Source: Parabacteroides faecalis (GTDB taxonomy: Bacteria; Bacteroidota; Bacteroidia; Bacteroidales; Tannerellaceae). From it: DNA of 64,000 nucleotides. The notes under the pieces are model-generated. The model made no database searches. It saw only the letters and a list, made by a program, of their open reading frames with translations, and was not told the origin of the DNA. Below are positions 4,825 through 12,419 of the stretch, one piece after another (position 1 is the stretch's first letter; every line of letters begins with the position of its first letter). The position numbers and the translations under genes are program-made. The stretch covers positions 1 through 64,000 of the forward strand of contig NZ_JAKZMM010000016.1 of the NCBI RefSeq assembly GCF_022809355.1. Direction: 5' to 3'.

Positions 4825-4836
4825 CTTTGCTTTCAG

Positions 4837-4911
4837 TCGGGATGACTGGATTCGAACCAGCGACCACACGCCCCCCAGACGCGTACTCTAACCGGGCTGA
4901 GCTACATCCCG
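4837..4911 (-). tRNA. tRNA-Pro, anticodon GGG
   Basis: The minus strand folds as a complete tRNA. The acceptor stem CGGGATG pairs with CATCCCG, the D-stem GCTC with GAGT, the anticodon stem CGCGT with GCGTG around loop CTGGGGG (anticodon GGG), and the T-stem GCTGG with CCAGT around loop TTCGAAT. The CCA end is not encoded. Nucleotides 1-40 lie inside the 67-bp direct repeat that bounds the integrated element, so the gene stays intact, but everything upstream of its -7 box now comes from the element. Confidence 0.93.
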
Positions 4912-4938
4912 TCTTTTCTTTTAACGGGTGCAAAGGTA
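4872..4938. repeat. Attachment site attL (67-bp direct repeat)
   Basis: These 67 bases are identical to 11280-11346. The block runs from the anticodon loop of tRNA-Pro through its 5' half to 27 bp upstream, ending exactly after the -7 box (TACCTTTG on the minus strand). The identity stops abruptly on both sides. This is what recombination by the adjacent tyrosine recombinase would leave. The side of the crossover cannot be read from identical sequence. Confidence 0.9.
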
Positions 4939-4961
4939 TGTATTTATGCGGCTTTTTGCAA
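4931..4961 (-). promoter_or_regulatory. Hybrid tRNA-Pro promoter
   Basis: On the minus strand the -7 box TACCTTTG (4931-4938) is the last part of the repeat shared with attR. Exactly 20 nt upstream is CTTG (4959-4962), a near-consensus -33 box that belongs to the element. At the native junction (attR side) the same -7 box has TTTG at 19 nt. So the element replaces the -33 box it displaced. The boxes fit the Bacteroidetes consensus; activity is inferred. Confidence 0.65.
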
Positions 4962-5265
4962 GTTTTTTATCATGAATTCTATTCTTAAAACTGTTTTTTA
5001 TATTTAAAAACAGAATATTTACCTGTTATATAGCGTATTATATTTCTTTTCATTCTAATCTATAATTGCTTGTACTTACAATAAATATGGATTATTATTT
5101 TAGGAAAGTTTTAGAAGATCAGGTAATATTTAATATGCAATGCATGGAACTATGTATACATAGAGATAGTAAAATACAAATCGTTAATAACTAATTATCA
5201 AACAATTAATCTAAAGCAAACACTTGTTACGAGTTCATTGTATTGGATAAAACTAATGGTAATCT
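4939..5265. other. Left non-coding end of the element
   Basis: An AT-rich stretch with no gene. It holds the replacement -33 box for tRNA-Pro, a hairpin at 4991-5013 (CTGTTTTT pairing with AAAAACAG), and presumably the integrase arm-binding sites, which I cannot recognise by eye. Confidence 0.5.
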
Positions 5266-5294: not shown

Positions 5295-6563
5295 ATGGCA
5301 ACATTTAAATTTATTATTCACACTGCTAATAAAAGAAAGAACAACACTTATCCTATATCACTAAGAATAATAAAGAACATGAAGACAAAATATTGTTCTA
5401 CAGGTATTTATGCAAAACTAGAAGAATGGGATGCTAAAGCTGAACGATTTGTGAACAATAAAAAGGTCTGCCCTATGGCTAAAGAGTATAATGCAAGACT
5501 AAATGAATTACTTGCGAAAACAGTTCAAATAAATAGAGAATTTGAATTAAATGGAATTGATTGGACATTACAGCAGTTTGCAGATAAATTTTTAGGAAAA
5601 GAGAAAAACGGATTATTCTTTTCTTATGCTGAAAAACTTATTGCTGTATCAATGGAAACAGGACATATAGGGAATGCAAAAGTTTATAAAAGCTCCTTAC
5701 ATAACATTGAATTATTTGATAATCAATTACATAATAGAACATTCCAAGAAATAAATATTAAGTATGTCAATTCCTATAATGCATTTATGGAAAAGAAAGG
5801 TTGGTGTGGAAACACAAGAAAGCATAATTTGAAAACCTTGAGAGCTATTTTAAATAAAGCTATTCAAGAAAAAGAATGTAATGCTATTAATTATCCTTTT
5901 GGAAAAGGAGGATTTTGCATAGGAGCATTAGAAGAAGAAACAGATAAAAGGTACTTATCTGATGAATCATTAAAAAAGTTAATGAGTACTAAGTCTGTAA
6001 ATAAATCAAGAGAAGTTGCTCGACACATTTTTTTGTTCTCATATTTTTGTTATGGGATGAGTTACATTGATATGGCAAATTTGACAAGTAATAATATTCA
6101 TATAGAAGGAGATAAAAAATACATATTATATAAAAGACAAAAGACAAAACATGCAAAAGGAAGTAAATTCATTAGAATTCCAATAACAGAAGAATTAGAT
6201 GCAATCATACAATGGTTTAAAGTGAATTCAAACCTAATAAATGATTATTTACTTCCTATTGTTACGATTAATTATAATGGAGAAAAGCTCTATGATCACG
6301 AACGCAGACGATTAGCCAAGTATAATTATCATCTGAAAAATTTGGGAATAGAATTGGATATTCCTGAAAAATTGACAAGCTATGTAAGCAGACATTCAAT
6401 GGCTATGAGTTTGCAAGAAGACGGAACACCTAGAGAAATTATTAGTCAGATAATGGGACATAAGGATCTAAAGACAACTAATACATATCTAGATAGTTTC
6501 AAAGATAGTAAAATAGAAGAAGTAACTAATAAATCATTATATAAGAACAAAATAGCTATATGA
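5295..6563 (+). CDS. int: Tyrosine recombinase / integrase
   Basis: A 422-residue integrase of the Bacteroidetes mobile-element type. It has an N-terminal arm-binding domain (residues 1-55), a core-binding SAM-like domain (about 110-205) and a C-terminal catalytic domain. In the catalytic part I see the beta-hairpin Lys in KRQKTKHAKG, the box II RHS motif near residue 366 (SYVSRHSMAM), the second His in IMGHKDLKTT near 389, and the nucleophile Tyr near 398 (NTYLDSF). The usual box I Arg position reads GMSYIDMA, as in many Bacteroidales integrases. It presumably catalyses exchange at the 67-bp tRNA-Pro repeat. Its last codons overlap the next gene by 4 bp (ATGA), so the two are translationally coupled. 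Confidence 0.93.
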   Translation: MATFKFIIHTANKRKNNTYPISLRIIKNMKTKYCSTGIYAKLEEWDAKAERFVNNKKVCPMAKEYNARLNELLAKTVQINREFELNGIDWTLQQFADKFLGKEKNGLFFSYAEKLIAVSMETGHIGNAKVYKSSLHNIELFDNQLHNRTFQEINIKYVNSYNAFMEKKGWCGNTRKHNLKTLRAILNKAIQEKECNAINYPFGKGGFCIGALEEETDKRYLSDESLKKLMSTKSVNKSREVARHIFLFSYFCYGMSYIDMANLTSNNIHIEGDKKYILYKRQKTKHAKGSKFIRIPITEELDAIIQWFKVNSNLINDYLLPIVTINYNGEKLYDHERRRLAKYNYHLKNLGIELDIPEKLTSYVSRHSMAMSLQEDGTPREIISQIMGHKDLKTTNTYLDSFKDSKIEEVTNKSLYKNKIAI

Positions 6564-7276
6564 GAACAAAGAAATATGATAATTATTTCCAAAAGTTAAT
6601 GACAGCTACAGAGTGCCTAGATGTCAATGAAATGGAAAAATACATATCAAAAACTACTTTAGGAGATAAAACTCTTCTCAAAAAACAAATAGAGAAAGTA
6701 AATTTCCTAATAGAAGAAAGGTTTCATTGTTATGGTGTTATAACAGAAGAGGACGATGTTGAAGCATTCAAGAAAGGATATTTTGATCTTGGTAAAATCT
6801 CATTGACTCTTATTGAGATTCAAAAGAAAATTGAAAAATTTAAAATTGAGTCTGATTCTTCTATGGGCATACGTATTAGTAAAGATTGGAATGATCCTTT
6901 ATTTTTATTACAAGACCTGTTACAATTAGAGAATACGAATTTGATAACTTACCAAAGTTTGCTACAAAAAAGATTATCAGAATCCTATGACAAAATAATA
7001 AAGCCCAAGGAACCCAAAAAAACTAGAAGAATTATTGAAGCCAAAATACCTGAAACACCTAATGACATTATAGGACTAAAGGATGTTTGTGAGATGTTGA
7101 ACTTATCTGAAAGTAAGATCTATCACCTAACCTGCCAAAGAGAAATTCCTCATTATAAGCTAGATAAGAGCAAAAAAGGTAGATTATTTTTTTCTCGTTC
7201 TGAAATAGAAAACTGGTTAAAACAGAAGCGAATAGGAACAACAGATGAGTTTTGTAATCAGTTTTATAGTAAGTAG
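6560..7276 (+). CDS. Helix-turn-helix / excisionase-like DNA-binding protein
   Basis: A 238-residue protein whose start overlaps the integrase stop by 4 bp. Residues 1-150 are charged and helical, with no fold I recognise. Residues about 168-228 form a MerR-like/HTH_17 helix-turn-helix of the excisionase family (GLKDVCEMLNLSESKIYHL, then GRLFFSRSEIENWLKQ). Such proteins next to integrases act as recombination directionality factors or element repressors. The long N-terminal extension is unusual for a plain excisionase, which is often near 100 residues, so it may also regulate replication. Function beyond DNA binding is inferred from position. Confidence 0.75.
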   Translation: MRTKKYDNYFQKLMTATECLDVNEMEKYISKTTLGDKTLLKKQIEKVNFLIEERFHCYGVITEEDDVEAFKKGYFDLGKISLTLIEIQKKIEKFKIESDSSMGIRISKDWNDPLFLLQDLLQLENTNLITYQSLLQKRLSESYDKIIKPKEPKKTRRIIEAKIPETPNDIIGLKDVCEMLNLSESKIYHLTCQREIPHYKLDKSKKGRLFFSRSEIENWLKQKRIGTTDEFCNQFYSK

Positions 7277-7320: not shown

Positions 7321-8307
7321 ATGATTGATACGATTTTTTTAGAGATAAAAGAAAGGGAACTAGATGTTCCCATTTCTTTTAAAGAAGAAGTGAGTTGTAG
7401 AATTGATATTAATGAACGTTTCTCTAATGATGAAAAAATAGTTGGACACTTAAAGAATATGCTTATTGAGATAAATGGCTCAACTCTAAAGATAAGGGGC
7501 AGTTTATCAAAATGGTATGAAGGAAATAATGTATATGGAATGGCTTTTGAGAAGGTAAAAAAGGTTATAAGAGAATTAGGAAATGCATTAGGTGTTCCTT
7601 TGGAAAGAGCAAAAATAACGAGATTAGATATTGCAGATTCTTTTAATATGAAGTATAAAGCTGAACTTTATATAGATCATTTGCATTATTTAAATGGTTA
7701 TATTCGTAATCTTGCAACCTCTAACTGTGTTTATTTTGTTCAGAAAAATAAAAGTAAGGTATCTCAGACTTTAAGATTATGTTTTTATGATAAAGATAAG
7801 GAGCTAAAAGACAAAAAAGATATAGAAGGTAAATTAGCTAAAGGATCTGATTTAGGTCATTTATTAAGATATGAATTGAGAATTAAAAGCCTAAGATATT
7901 TATTTGGGCGGGAAATTAGGTGTTCAGACTTGTTTTCTGAGTTTTTTTATACAGATCTGATCGATTTATGGTTTAATATGTATGATTGCGTTAAAAAGGA
8001 AAGAAAAGGACTTAACTGTAATTTTCCTCTAAAGTTTAATGGGTTGAAAGAATTTCAAGAAAGTTGTGAACGTTTATGTGTAGGAGCTTTTAATATGCAA
8101 GAGGAACTTAATATTGCTTATTTGAGAGGTGAAGTTACTGCACAGAATAAAACTAATGTTCTAAAAAGGATAAAAGAATTAGAGAATTCTATTGCAGAAG
8201 CAGATGAAGTTGTTCCCTTAATAAAAGAACTGGATAAAAAGATGTTAGAAGCTTATGATAAACGGTTATGTGAAATAAAAAATTTCAATAAAACTTTGAC
8301 AGAATAA
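7321..8307 (+). CDS. Phage/plasmid replication initiator, gene II/X family
   Basis: A 328-residue protein resembling the replication proteins of filamentous phages (gene II/X family, Phage_CRI). The recognised points in order are: start MIDTIFLEI; SLSKWYEGNNVYG, which matches the phage HNVFG region; ITRLDIADSF, which matches ISRIDATFS; LLRYELRIKSLRYLFG, which matches the phage LVRFEARIKTRYL stretch; and a helical C terminus. Family members nick one strand at the plus origin and start rolling-circle replication. It suggests that the excised element replicates through single-stranded DNA. It is followed by a 420-bp hairpin-rich region that would be the natural place for the nick site. The family call rests on motif resemblance by eye. 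Confidence 0.75.
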   Translation: MIDTIFLEIKERELDVPISFKEEVSCRIDINERFSNDEKIVGHLKNMLIEINGSTLKIRGSLSKWYEGNNVYGMAFEKVKKVIRELGNALGVPLERAKITRLDIADSFNMKYKAELYIDHLHYLNGYIRNLATSNCVYFVQKNKSKVSQTLRLCFYDKDKELKDKKDIEGKLAKGSDLGHLLRYELRIKSLRYLFGREIRCSDLFSEFFYTDLIDLWFNMYDCVKKERKGLNCNFPLKFNGLKEFQESCERLCVGAFNMQEELNIAYLRGEVTAQNKTNVLKRIKELENSIAEADEVVPLIKELDKKMLEAYDKRLCEIKNFNKTLTE

Positions 8308-8729: not shown

Positions 8730-9362
8730 ATGTGTGAGCAAGAAAATGAAGATTTTGGTATTGTCTATGCCTTAACTAATGAAGCTATGCCTGGATTAGT
8801 TAAAATAGGGATGAGTTCCAATTCAGAAGTGGATGTAAGGAAAGATCAATTATATTTCGGTTGTCCTGGAGTTCCATTGCCTTTTGAATGTGTTTATGCT
8901 TGTAAAATAAAGGATTATAAAAAAGCAGAAAAAGCTCTACACATTGCGTTTGCGCCAGACCGTATTAATCCGAATAGAGAATTTTTCAAAATAGACATTG
9001 AAAGAGTTATCGCTGTTTTGGAATTGTTAGGACCTAATAATGCGAAAAGGGAAATAGAAGAGGAATTAGATCGTGATATAAGCTCTGAAGAAATAAAATC
9101 TCGGGAAAAAATGAAAAAAAGAGCAGCTTTCAATTTTGAGAGAATGGAAATACCTATTGGGGCAAAATTGACTTATATAAAAGATCGTAATATAGAAATT
9201 GAAGTGGCTGAAAATAATAAAGTAAAATATGATGGGGAGATCATGTCGTTAACTGCGGTAACAAAACAGTTTTTACCTTATGTTGTGCATCCTACCCCTT
9301 ATTGGTTATATGAAGATGAGAAATTATCAGATATTTGGATTAACTCTTTAGAAAATGATTAA
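8730..9362 (+). CDS. GIY-YIG (T5orf172-type) protein with C-terminal accessory domain
   Basis: A 210-residue protein. Residues 10-100 match a GIY-YIG nuclease domain of the T5orf172 type: GIVYALTNEAMPGLVKIGMS, the Arg in DVRKDQL, the Glu in KKAEKALHIAF, and the closing REFFKI. Residues 130-208 form a second domain (GAKLTYIKDRNIEIEVAE, HPTPYWLYEDEKLSDIW). That domain resembles the small beta-rich modules (DUF4357/RAMA-like) found behind GIY-YIG and methylase domains. The next gene is a stand-alone version of it. Family members are DNA nucleases of phages and mobile elements; here the role could be restriction of competitors or element maintenance. The ATG at 8730 follows an AAAGGA ribosome-binding site. 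Confidence 0.72.
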   Translation: MCEQENEDFGIVYALTNEAMPGLVKIGMSSNSEVDVRKDQLYFGCPGVPLPFECVYACKIKDYKKAEKALHIAFAPDRINPNREFFKIDIERVIAVLELLGPNNAKREIEEELDRDISSEEIKSREKMKKRAAFNFERMEIPIGAKLTYIKDRNIEIEVAENNKVKYDGEIMSLTAVTKQFLPYVVHPTPYWLYEDEKLSDIWINSLEND

Positions 9363-9758: not shown

Positions 9759-10118
9759 ATGGATTACAAAAGAAAAAAGGTAATAGACCATTTGAAAAAA
9801 GCAGGATTTGAAGATGAGCAAATAGGGATGATTCTTGATGTCATCCCTATTGAAGAGGCTTATTTGAATTTACGGAGAAGTGAAGTATTAAAAAAGGTCG
9901 TTCATATATTGGGCATTGATGAAGTCGAAAAAAGAGCTAAAAGAATGAATATGACGATTGATGTCTTTGCTAAAGAGTTTGATCGTTGGAATACTTGGAA
10001 CGAAGTAACAGTTACAAGAGTTTCAGAAGAAGAAGTGCGGAAATTAAAAGAAGCATCAGAAGAAAGGCTTATTAAATTTTTACAAGATGGAAGAGATAAA
10101 AGAGAAAATCAAGAATAG
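9759..10118 (+). CDS. Hypothetical helical protein
   Basis: A 119-residue, highly charged, predicted all-helical protein with no signal peptide, membrane segment or motif I recognise. It overlaps the start of the ADP-ribosylglycohydrolase gene by 32 bp in another frame, so the two are cotranscribed and probably act together. The frame is well supported by the coupled layout and by codon use like that of its neighbours. I see no ADP-ribosyltransferase motif, so a toxin of that class is not supported. Confidence 0.6.
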   Translation: MDYKRKKVIDHLKKAGFEDEQIGMILDVIPIEEAYLNLRRSEVLKKVVHILGIDEVEKRAKRMNMTIDVFAKEFDRWNTWNEVTVTRVSEEEVRKLKEASEERLIKFLQDGRDKRENQE

Positions 10119-10896
10119 CATAAGAGCCTATATATTAGGAGATGCTTTAGGAGTACCTTTTGAATTTCAAGAAAAGGGTTCTTTTACATGTAAAGGTTTT
10201 ACAGGTTTTGGAACATACAACAAACCTATTGGAACTTGGTCTGATGACACTACTGTAATCTTATGTTTATTAGACGCTTTAACTAAAGCTAATTTGAATT
10301 TTGATAAGGCTGAAAAAATATTCAAAGAAAATTTGAATGCTTGGTACTATGAGGATAAGTTTACAGTTGATGGTTTATTTGATATCGGTACTCAAACTTC
10401 TATTTCCATTCAAAGTAAGTTTGAGAATAGTTTGACTGATCGTATGGGAAATGGAGCTTTGTTTTATTTGCCTTTAACTTTTTGTTTTGTGTGTAAGGAA
10501 TTACAGAAAAAAGATTTTATACAGTTTTGTAAGATTACGCATAATAATTTGAACTGTTTTAATTATGGTTGGAATCTTTGTTTAGTGATCAAAAATTTAT
10601 TGAATGAAATTGCTGATAGAATAAAATTGGAAGAATTTAAAAATAGAGGAGATGTTATAAATACATTTAATCTTGTATTGAATTACTTTTATCAGTTAAG
10701 AGAAAGTGATTTATCTTTAAGAGATTGCCTGTGCAGAGTGATAAATGAAGGGGAAGATACCGATACAAACGCAGCTATACTTGGTCTTTTACTAGGATTG
10801 ATAAAAGAAGTAGATAAAAAAGATTGGTTAATGGTACGAAAACATGAGTTCGCAGATCAAATTATTGATGAATTTGTTCAGACGTTGATAGCTTAA
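10087..10896 (+). CDS. ADP-ribosylglycohydrolase family protein
   Basis: A 269-residue member of the ADP-ribosylglycohydrolase (DraG/ARH) family, which removes ADP-ribose from proteins or nucleic acids using two metal ions. The N-terminal motif is YILGDALGVPFEF, followed by the metal-binding TWSDDTTVIL near residue 42. The C-terminal metal motif is GEDTDTNAAILGLLLGL near residue 228. All expected acidic ligands look intact, so it should be active. The ATG at 10087 overlaps the previous gene by 32 bp. On a small mobile element such an enzyme could reverse an ADP-ribosylating defence or toxin, or tune a host enzyme. The substrate is unknown. Confidence 0.85.
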   Translation: MEEIKEKIKNSIRAYILGDALGVPFEFQEKGSFTCKGFTGFGTYNKPIGTWSDDTTVILCLLDALTKANLNFDKAEKIFKENLNAWYYEDKFTVDGLFDIGTQTSISIQSKFENSLTDRMGNGALFYLPLTFCFVCKELQKKDFIQFCKITHNNLNCFNYGWNLCLVIKNLLNEIADRIKLEEFKNRGDVINTFNLVLNYFYQLRESDLSLRDCLCRVINEGEDTDTNAAILGLLLGLIKEVDKKDWLMVRKHEFADQIIDEFVQTLIA

Positions 10897-11279
10897 AGAA
10901 AGAATAGAATAAAAAGGCTATTAAGAATATGGATTGTATGTATGATTATGTGAAGAGTATTTCTAAACAATATTTTCAGCATAGATAAGATTTGATTTGC
11001 CATAAATAGATTTCTATACTTTGGGAAATATAGGTTCATAATAAGTCTGAAGAAAGAAAATGTTTAATATTTTGTTGGTTATACCTATGATAGTGAGGAC
11101 CTTTATCTAAAACTTATAATAGAAAAAATGAGAAATTGTATTTTGCATAGATTTGCACGGAATTATCGTGAATGTTTTAGGAAAGTGTTACCGAAAAAAA
11201 GAAAAAGAGCTAAGCAATATTGCCTAACTCTTTCTATATTAAAGAATAAAATTCAATTGTTTTTAGGATTTAGTTCCTT
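10897..11279. other. Right non-coding end of the element
   Basis: No credible gene. A short plus-strand reading frame at 11128-11361 merely runs across the attachment site. The only structure I see is the hairpin at 11204-11233, listed separately. Confidence 0.6.
11204..11233 (-). terminator. Element-borne terminator after the tRNA fragment
   Basis: On the minus strand AAGAGTTAGGCAAT pairs with ATTGCTTAGCTCTT (two G-U type mismatches), followed by a T-rich run. It stands 46 bp past the truncated tRNA-Pro fragment. It resembles the native tRNA-Pro terminator at 4796-4824, whose arms are GAGTTAAG and CTTAACTC. It would stop transcripts entering the element from the native tRNA promoter. Confidence 0.65.
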
Positions 11280-11319
11280 CCCCCAGACGCGTACTCTAAC
11301 CGGGCTGAGCTACATCCCG
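11280..11319 (-). pseudogene. tRNA-Pro 5'-half fragment
   Basis: Nucleotides 1-40 of tRNA-Pro(GGG), from the acceptor stem to the anticodon loop, duplicated by integration. The 3' half is missing and the following element sequence does not rebuild it. The fragment keeps the native promoter, so it may still be transcribed as a tRNA-half-like RNA ending at the hairpin near 11204. Confidence 0.82.
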
Positions 11320-11346
11320 TCTTTTCTTTTAACGGGTGCAAAGGTA
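11280..11346. repeat. Attachment site attR (67-bp direct repeat)
   Basis: Identical to 4872-4938, offset by 6408 bp. It marks the right border of the element. Beyond it the sequence returns to the chromosome 11 bp before the aroB stop codon. Confidence 0.9.
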
Positions 11347-11369
11347 GAGATTTTATTCTAAATTCCAAA
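11339..11369 (-). promoter_or_regulatory. Native tRNA-Pro promoter, now driving the fragment
   Basis: The minus strand reads TTTG (overlapping the last codons of aroB), a 19-nt spacer, then TACCTTTG (11339-11346), a perfect Bacteroidetes promoter. Before integration it would have driven the intact tRNA-Pro just downstream of aroB. Confidence 0.65.
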
Positions 11370-12419
11370 ACTTTCCCGATAAAAATCCATCGCCTCCAGG
11401 ATTTGTTCCTTTTCTACATGCTGATTGATGTGTACATCTCCTACTTGCCCCAATAGGGTAAAGTTAATAACATCCCCTTCGTTTTTCTTGTCGTGTCTCA
11501 TCAACTCATAAAGCTGGTCATAGTCTTTACAAGTGAAGAAAAAGGCCGGATAATACGTTTTCAGGTAATAAATTACCTGGCTGAGTTTCTCTTTCGGGAA
11601 ACCGCATAACTTATGAGACAAGTATAATTCGCTGACTAAACCAGCAGCTACCGCATGTCCGTGTAACAAAGGTTTATTTTGCTGGAAAGACAGACTTTCG
11701 TAGGCATGACCAATCGTATGACCAAAATTCAAGGCTTTCCGAATACCTTTCTCTTTTGGGTCTTGTGCCACGATATCCTCTTTGACGGCTACAGACTGTG
11801 CTACGAGTTGATTCAGGTAGGAATAATTCATCGTATCGATATCATACAGCATGACGGGCAAATAGACATCCATCGAACTGATCAGTGCATGCTTGATCAT
11901 CTCGGCATAACCGGAAAGAATATTGGCACGATCCAGTGTACGAAGAAATTCACAGTCGATAAAGACACATAAAGGCGGATAGAACGAACCGATCTCATTC
12001 TTCAATCCGTTGAAGTTAATTCCCGTCTTACCGCCAACAGCAGCATCGACAGACGCCATCAAAGTAGTCGGTACATTGATCGTCCGAATGCCCCGTTTGA
12101 AAGTAGCACCAGCGAAACCGCCCATATCCGTAACCATACCGCCACCCAGATTCAATAATACCGAATGACGTGTTGCGCCTTCATTCGACAGTCGCATCCA
12201 GATAGACGACAATGATTCCAGGTTCTTATGCGTATCGCCGGCTTCAACCGTAATAACCGGAGCCTCCTGTAGTAAAGGAATATCTTTTACCAAAGGATAA
12301 CACTGTTCCACCGTATGCGTATCCGTCAATACAAACAACTTATCATAATCCAGATCTGCCAGAAAAGCCTGTAACTCGGCTTTCAGATCCTGACAAATCA
12401 CTACTTTCTGTTCAGACAT
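11358..12419 (-). CDS. aroB: 3-dehydroquinate synthase
   Basis: A 353-residue cytoplasmic enzyme that converts DAHP to 3-dehydroquinate, the second step of the shikimate pathway. It binds NAD and a divalent metal. Visible motifs are the nucleotide-binding region VEAGDTHKNLESLSSIW, LNLGGGMVTDMGGFAGATFKRG, PTTLMASVDAAVGGKTGIN, the metal-ligand Glu in SGYAEMIKHAL, and the His motifs in LNFGHTIGHAYE and LLHGHAVAAG. The length is normal for the family. It stood immediately upstream of tRNA-Pro before the element inserted. A TATTTTTG -7 box lies at 12445-12452 on its strand. Confidence 0.96.
   Translation of the reverse strand: MSEQKVVICQDLKAELQAFLADLDYDKLFVLTDTHTVEQCYPLVKDIPLLQEAPVITVEAGDTHKNLESLSSIWMRLSNEGATRHSVLLNLGGGMVTDMGGFAGATFKRGIRTINVPTTLMASVDAAVGGKTGINFNGLKNEIGSFYPPLCVFIDCEFLRTLDRANILSGYAEMIKHALISSMDVYLPVMLYDIDTMNYSYLNQLVAQSVAVKEDIVAQDPKEKGIRKALNFGHTIGHAYESLSFQQNKPLLHGHAVAAGLVSELYLSHKLCGFPKEKLSQVIYYLKTYYPAFFFTCKDYDQLYELMRHDKKNEGDVINFTLLGQVGDVHINQHVEKEQILEAMDFYRESFGI

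Follow-up and report, generated by a model that had tools for sequence, protein, structure and literature searches.

How is the tRNA-Pro(GGG) gene transcribed in a genome in which an integrated element begins directly upstream of it? The window, that is, the whole 64,000-nt stretch of Parabacteroides faecalis DNA analysed here, carries such an element, 6.4 kb in size, with its ends marked by a 67-bp direct repeat. The earlier note held that integration had cut the tRNA promoter in two at the outer edge of the -7 box and that the element had evolved a substitute for the -33 box only. Rather, comparison with related elements makes it very probable that the element supplies the 5' half of the tRNA, the leader, the -7 box and the -33 box together, remaking tRNA-Pro(GGG) after a crossover within the anticodon loop. 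The element and its attachment repeats comprise the following features:

4836..4911, minus strand: tRNA-Pro(GGG), an intact hybrid gene with a host 3' half and, judging from the crossover position, an element 5' half
4872..4938: 67-bp repeat, attL copy
11280..11346: 67-bp repeat, attR copy, with the tRNA 5' half, leader and -7 box stranded on the host side
5295..6563, plus strand: tyrosine integrase, 422 aa, with Phage_integrase, SAM-like and arm-binding domains
6560..7276, plus strand: helix-turn-helix protein, excisionase-like
7321..8307, plus strand: replication-associated protein, G2P/Phage_CRI family
8730..9362, plus strand: T5orf172-domain protein
10087..10896, plus strand: ADP-ribosylglycohydrolase-family protein
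5098..5113, plus strand: candidate integrase arm-type site TTTTAGGAAAGTTTTA, weak on its own
11175..11190, plus strand: candidate arm-type site at the right end, TTTTAGGAAAGTGTTA

The two copies of the repeat are identical over all 67 nt, with mismatches beyond, and the integrase gene lies beside one att site, so that an intact tRNA, a tRNA fragment and a direct repeat are found together as in tyrosine-integrase elements that target tRNA genes. The displaced fragment (11280-11319) corresponds to nucleotides 1-40 of the tRNA, i.e. to the 5' end of the gene, which makes this a 5'-type island. The integrase frame is open and located 383 nt from the tRNA, and is thus not disrupted by integration. 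The arm-type candidates are weak when taken alone, two matches with at most 2 mismatches being obtained in 5 of 100 shuffles. The attR copy of the repeat lies directly behind aroB (11358-12419), the 3' end of which precedes 22 of the 35 distinct Parabacteroides tRNA-Pro genes examined and therefore marks where this tRNA usually lies in the genus. A search of the genome returned a single tRNA-Pro gene with the GGG anticodon, tRNA-Pro(TGG) being present separately. We note that one relative (L060/L139, genome G026) has its integrase at the opposite end of the element and carries two ADP-ribosylglycohydrolase genes.

Promoter boxes are present at both junctions:

4931..4938, minus strand: -7 box TACCTTTG, probably element-borne
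4959..4962, minus strand: -33 box CTTG, element-borne, 20 nt from the -7 box
11339..11346, minus strand: native -7 box TACCTTTG, orphaned
11366..11369, minus strand: native -33 box TTTG, orphaned, within the 3' end of aroB, 19 nt from the -7 box

At both copies the outer end of the repeat (4872-4938 and 11280-11346) coincides with the first base of TACCTTTG, and the spacings of 19 nt for TTTG at attR and 20 nt for CTTG at attL are likewise as the earlier note had reported them. The native -33 box lies inside the last aroB codons (11358-11369), where promoter and protein end may each limit changes in the other. The Bacteroides promoter consensus is described as TTTG/TAnnTTTG (PMC7366714). Within a sample of 31 loci of this genome (30 of the 72 tRNA matches together with L003), which contain 37 distinct tRNA genes, TAnnTTTG is found no more than 90 nt upstream of 19 genes, 16 of which have TTG at 19-20 nt, and the promoter of the host tRNA-Tyr is exactly CTTG at 20 nt. 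CTTG at this spacing is an ordinary host promoter form and no makeshift. The box pair at attL would probably serve as a promoter in cells.

A single box of this kind could also arise by chance in AT-rich DNA, with the tRNA being transcribed in some other way: in five of these elements, a randomly chosen position has a TTG 19 or 20 nt away with a frequency of 0.042-0.047 (about 0.042 in the window element), so that the window taken as a single case is weak evidence. Relatives were collected by scanning contigs with an integrase alignment, which yielded 72 loci. Seven of these are 5'-type (L061, L062, L063, L067, L068, L072 and L073), having either nucleotides 1-40 duplicated or an intact tRNA 5' end facing the integrase gene, and in 28 the 3' half of the tRNA adjoins the integrase; the latter, together with the element of genome G004, form a set of 29 3'-type controls. 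The remainder consist of L060, a 3'-type locus whose integrase lies at the other end, seven loci with a partial or weak tRNA piece (L082, L083, L085, L103, L115, L116 and L118), one with an intact tRNA near a partial match (L129) and 28 with no tRNA-Pro piece; L060, the seven loci with partial or weak pieces and the later 3'-type loci L189, L190, L194 and L177-L179 were omitted from the controls. A search of 399 genomes from the family of B. propionicigenes gave 11 matches, namely L062 and (by coordinates) L072 again, three new 5'-type elements (L195, L196 and L199), three 3'-type elements and three loci with no tRNA-Pro piece. L200 is the far end of L195, and L202 (genome G605) is that of L199. 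The total of 5'-type elements collected here, including that of the window, is 11. One of them, L063, lies on a contig labelled Gastranaerophilales that carries this Bacteroidales-type element together with the tRNA fragment, perhaps through a binning error.

The best relative among phage records, MT836914.1 (integrase 49% identical), contains no tRNA-Pro piece and hence gives no direct view of attP; among plasmid records, the best 20 of 30 matches all have integrases less than 31% identical. Scanning the viral_contigs set with a single protein returned no relative, and scanning it with the alignment returned five loci, three with a 3' or inner tRNA piece and two without any.

The left ends of the 5'-type elements are uniform with respect to the promoter. 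TAnnTTTG with TTG at 19 or 20 nt is present in all ten that reach the promoter (10 of the 11 elements, the contig of L063 being too short), compared with one of the 29 3'-type left ends (L110) when these are read in the same direction up to the integrase gene. Fisher's test gives p of about 2e-8 with the elements counted as independent though they are related; indeed, the ten promoters represent two lineages, and L067 and L068 are near-copies. The -33-like box that the earlier note suggested seeking at attL of other integrations at the same site is therefore conserved. A chance match, which the box pair of L110 shows can occur, would not be expected in ten of ten 5'-type ends and one of 29 3'-type ends, and the box has been lost in the 3'-type relative G004 (below); we judge this explanation of the CTTG box to be highly improbable, and retain the reading in which the box is part of a promoter carried by the element.

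The repeats of the two types also bracket the site of recombination. Across the seven 5'-type elements compared from end to end, identity between element and host reaches tRNA nucleotides 39-40, and in two later ones it reaches nucleotide 39 (L200) and about nucleotide 45 (L202). In the nine 3'-type relatives for which both ends are available, identity starts at nucleotides 32-34. The stretch common to both types of repeat is thus nucleotides 34-40, the seven-base anticodon loop, and for this reason the crossover most likely lies within it:

4872..4878, minus strand: putative 7-bp crossover region CTGGGGG, the anticodon loop (tRNA nucleotides 34-40) in the attL copy, defined by the overlap of 5'-type and 3'-type repeats

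A review likens the anticodon loop to the 7-bp overlap of lambda-type sites (PMC8371274). With the crossover in the loop, everything upstream of the loop on the intact tRNA would be derived from the element. By contrast, a promoter divided at the -7 box, with the host retaining that box and the element having evolved only a substitute -33 box, accounts for the exact end of the window repeat, but this end is peculiar to the window element: identity between attL and attR extends 27 nt upstream of the tRNA here and from 0 to 21 nt in six relatives. In L062 and L068 it amounts to 0 and 2 nt, and therefore the leader, the -7 box and the -33 box are all plainly brought by the element there. In L062, from B. 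propionicigenes, attL and attR have no common base next to the tRNA on the upstream side, the leader is Parabacteroides-like and the orphaned native one resembles Bacteroides leaders, as judged by eye; a search of that genome found the GGG gene once in full, besides the fragment, and the next match was 73% alike. The varying limit of identity, the restriction of the 3'-type matches to the loop and beyond, and the element-borne leaders together render the divided promoter quite improbable. What stands of the original proposal is that the element occupies the place of the native -33 box and brings a -33-like box that is conserved in relatives; the division of the promoter is not supported, given that the crossover is bracketed within the tRNA. 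For the long identities of the window (27 nt) and of G003 (21 nt), a crossover further upstream or a later gene conversion could also be envisaged.

The promoter can be traced into an element that restores the other tRNA half. The integrase of G004 is 64% identical to that of the window, yet the G004 element restores the 3' half. Its left end (L059, about 2104-2260) can still be aligned to the promoter of G003 and the first part of the 5' half, with a score of 24 compared with a best score of 15 in 1000 dinucleotide shuffles; ACTTG is aligned to ACTAG, and the 5' half is degenerate. Judged by its sequence, this stretch of a 3'-type element is the decayed remnant of a promoter and 5' half. No such relic was visible by eye in the 3'-type elements L060 and L071. 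A tree of 45 integrases, from which L080 (stop codon) was left out and which did not include the L199 integrase (apparently broken), unites the eight 5'-type rows known at that stage and three 3'-type rows in a single group of 11 (98/94), and its well-supported branches require at least three changes between the 5'-type and 3'-type labels. A second tree of 27 chosen rows, including L195 and L196, recovers the same grouping, root aside (91/89), with at least two changes. Thus the restored half has switched more than once, and the direction of the switch is evident for G004 only, from its relic.

At the right end, the orphaned host promoter faces a second conserved feature:

11202..11235, minus strand: hairpin resembling an intrinsic terminator, oriented towards the orphaned host promoter and at the distance at which a tRNA-Pro gene has its terminator

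A hairpin followed by a T run begins at nucleotides 86-88, numbered from tRNA nucleotide 1, at all ten 5'-type right ends (of the 11 elements, that of L196 was not found in the stretch examined). For comparison, the terminator starts at nucleotides 77-98 in 34 of the 35 intact tRNA-Pro genes of the genus, two of which (G004 and G026) have element-derived 3' halves. The orphaned 5' half is separated from the hairpin by some 45 nt of non-tRNA DNA, and by less in L202, where the tRNA match extends to about nucleotide 45. From the hairpin outward, the right ends of the window, G003 and L062 are 0.70-0.72 identical to that of G004 (maximum of 300 shuffles, 0.55-0.56), whereas the 45-nt spacer is 0.37-0.40 identical to the G004 tRNA 3' half, which is not above shuffles. 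Thus, the two element types differ just in the stretch that contains the 3' half, and attP looks like the shell of a tRNA gene with one half replaced. The hairpin would act as a terminator that keeps the host promoter from reading into the element.

The boxes at the left end could conceivably be a frozen copy of the host tRNA promoter, carried as homology without any role in expression. The boxes do have the usual host form, the leader of the window element is identical to that of the host, and the two ends of L073 are the same up to the -33 box apart from a few bases. However, the -33 box of the window element lies outside the repeat, each of the seven element-host promoter pairs compared shows differences, and the box pair is retained at 5'-type left ends and missing from 28 of the 29 3'-type ones. 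In addition, 3 of 9 orphaned host promoters lack the 19-20 nt spacing compared with 0 of 10 element promoters, a difference that is suggestive only (p = 0.087): six keep TTG at 19-20 nt, L200 has a spacing of 17 nt, L202 has no -33 box and L068 lacks the box pair. A copy without function is accordingly very unlikely, and we favour an element promoter that is maintained for transcription of the remade tRNA.

Decay of the orphaned promoter would tie the cell to its element, and the counts above do no more than suggest such a lock-in. L068 was set aside as an example of decay: its 5' fragment lies 35 nt behind tRNA-Ser(TGA), and an operon in which tRNA-Pro had no promoter of its own is equally likely. 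Two orphaned 5' halves have changed within the tRNA part, those of L067 (at nucleotide 5) and L200. In L202 (7275-12670), the integrase match is split into two overlapping pieces that lie in different frames; this integrase may be broken and the element fixed in place, an assembly error being the alternative. For the window genome, it is plausible that decoding of CCC and CCU codons depends on the element.

Thirteen of the 35 Parabacteroides tRNA-Pro genes are not behind the aroB end, one of them being that of G003 with its element. We do not claim these positions as scars of lost elements: G035 and G032 carry ordinary-looking genes (by eye) between tRNA and aroB, including one for a purL-like protein in G035, and relatives of the window integrase are encoded in neither. 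In G002 (L136, 2834-5600), the region upstream of tRNA-Pro resembles the end of the G003 element (93% across 175 nt, counting the tRNA), and no integrase relative was found in this interval; unrelated genes for myo-inositol-1-phosphate synthase and a PIG-L protein lie between tRNA-Pro and aroB. This region may be either a scar or a donor.

Taken together, we propose that attP, bearing the whole front end of a tRNA gene from the -33 box through the -7 box and leader to tRNA nucleotide 40, would recombine with the anticodon loop of tRNA-Pro(GGG) through the action of the tyrosine integrase. Integration would join this front end to the host 3' half and terminator, giving an intact tRNA transcribed from the element promoter. 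The host promoter and 5' half would be stranded at the far end, where transcription would run into the element for about 45 nt before ending at the element-borne terminator. A broader scheme can be put forward tentatively, and we regard it as possible rather than probable: attP would be a shell with promoter, leader and one working half, the other half having been overwritten by non-tRNA DNA of about equal length with the terminator kept, and related elements would flip the working half. With the 5' half working, the host promoter would be free to decay, locking the cell to the element for a single-copy tRNA, and the orphaned promoter would produce a short tRNA-half RNA ending at the element terminator. 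Such elements offer a bacterial clade in which the takeover of a host tRNA promoter, and its surrender, can be watched, and they make testable the old question of why nearly all tRNA-targeting elements restore the 3' half. They also suggest a toxin-free route to an element that is hard to lose, by placing the sole promoter of a single-copy tRNA gene in its hands.

Among the literature matches listed, no Bacteroidales case concerning this site or the supply of promoters to tRNA genes was found (subscription journals lay mostly outside the search), and the available part of PMC9897764 holds nothing further on promoters. As the earlier note stated, most tRNA-integrating elements use the 3' half; in the Islander survey, 159 of 3,919 mapped islands are of the 5' type (PMC4383910), in which, as here, the 5' fragment is displaced and the intact gene is restored by the island. 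Unlike the present analysis, the accessible portion of that paper does not treat promoter supply, a paired terminator or switching of halves, and the word promoter does not occur in it. Insertion at the 5' end of a host gene with supply of a new promoter is also described for dusA-specific islands, where the promoter was demonstrated by a lacZ fusion, and for SXT in prfC, which is cited in the same work (PMC8409611); these targets differ from ours in being protein-coding, with an altered N-terminus. Phages with tRNA-dependent lysogeny resemble the present element in that a tRNA-integrating element takes over tRNA supply with its own promoter, but there the tRNA is not remade and a separate phage tRNA gene complements the loss (PMC10865867). 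Another close parallel is provided by the pTN3-like elements of Thermococcales, where the 5' half of the tRNA serves as attB, cleavage is suggested to border the anticodon loop and the restored tRNA is removed from its original promoter (PMC5495485, PMC8371274), as described for the tRNA-Leu targeted by pTN3 (PMC5495485). In these archaeal elements, integration breaks up the integrase gene, and the integrase promoter is said to drive expression of the tRNA (PMC5495485, PMC8371274), whereas here a divergent tRNA-type promoter is located about 330 nt from an intact integrase gene. Indeed, the tRNA has a box pair of its own and the integrase gene is oriented away from it, which speaks against transcription from an integrase promoter. 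An element that puts a tRNA on a new promoter is therefore of a known but rare kind; what is new here is the switching of halves with a visible promoter relic, the kept terminator and the occurrence of such switching within one integrase clade.
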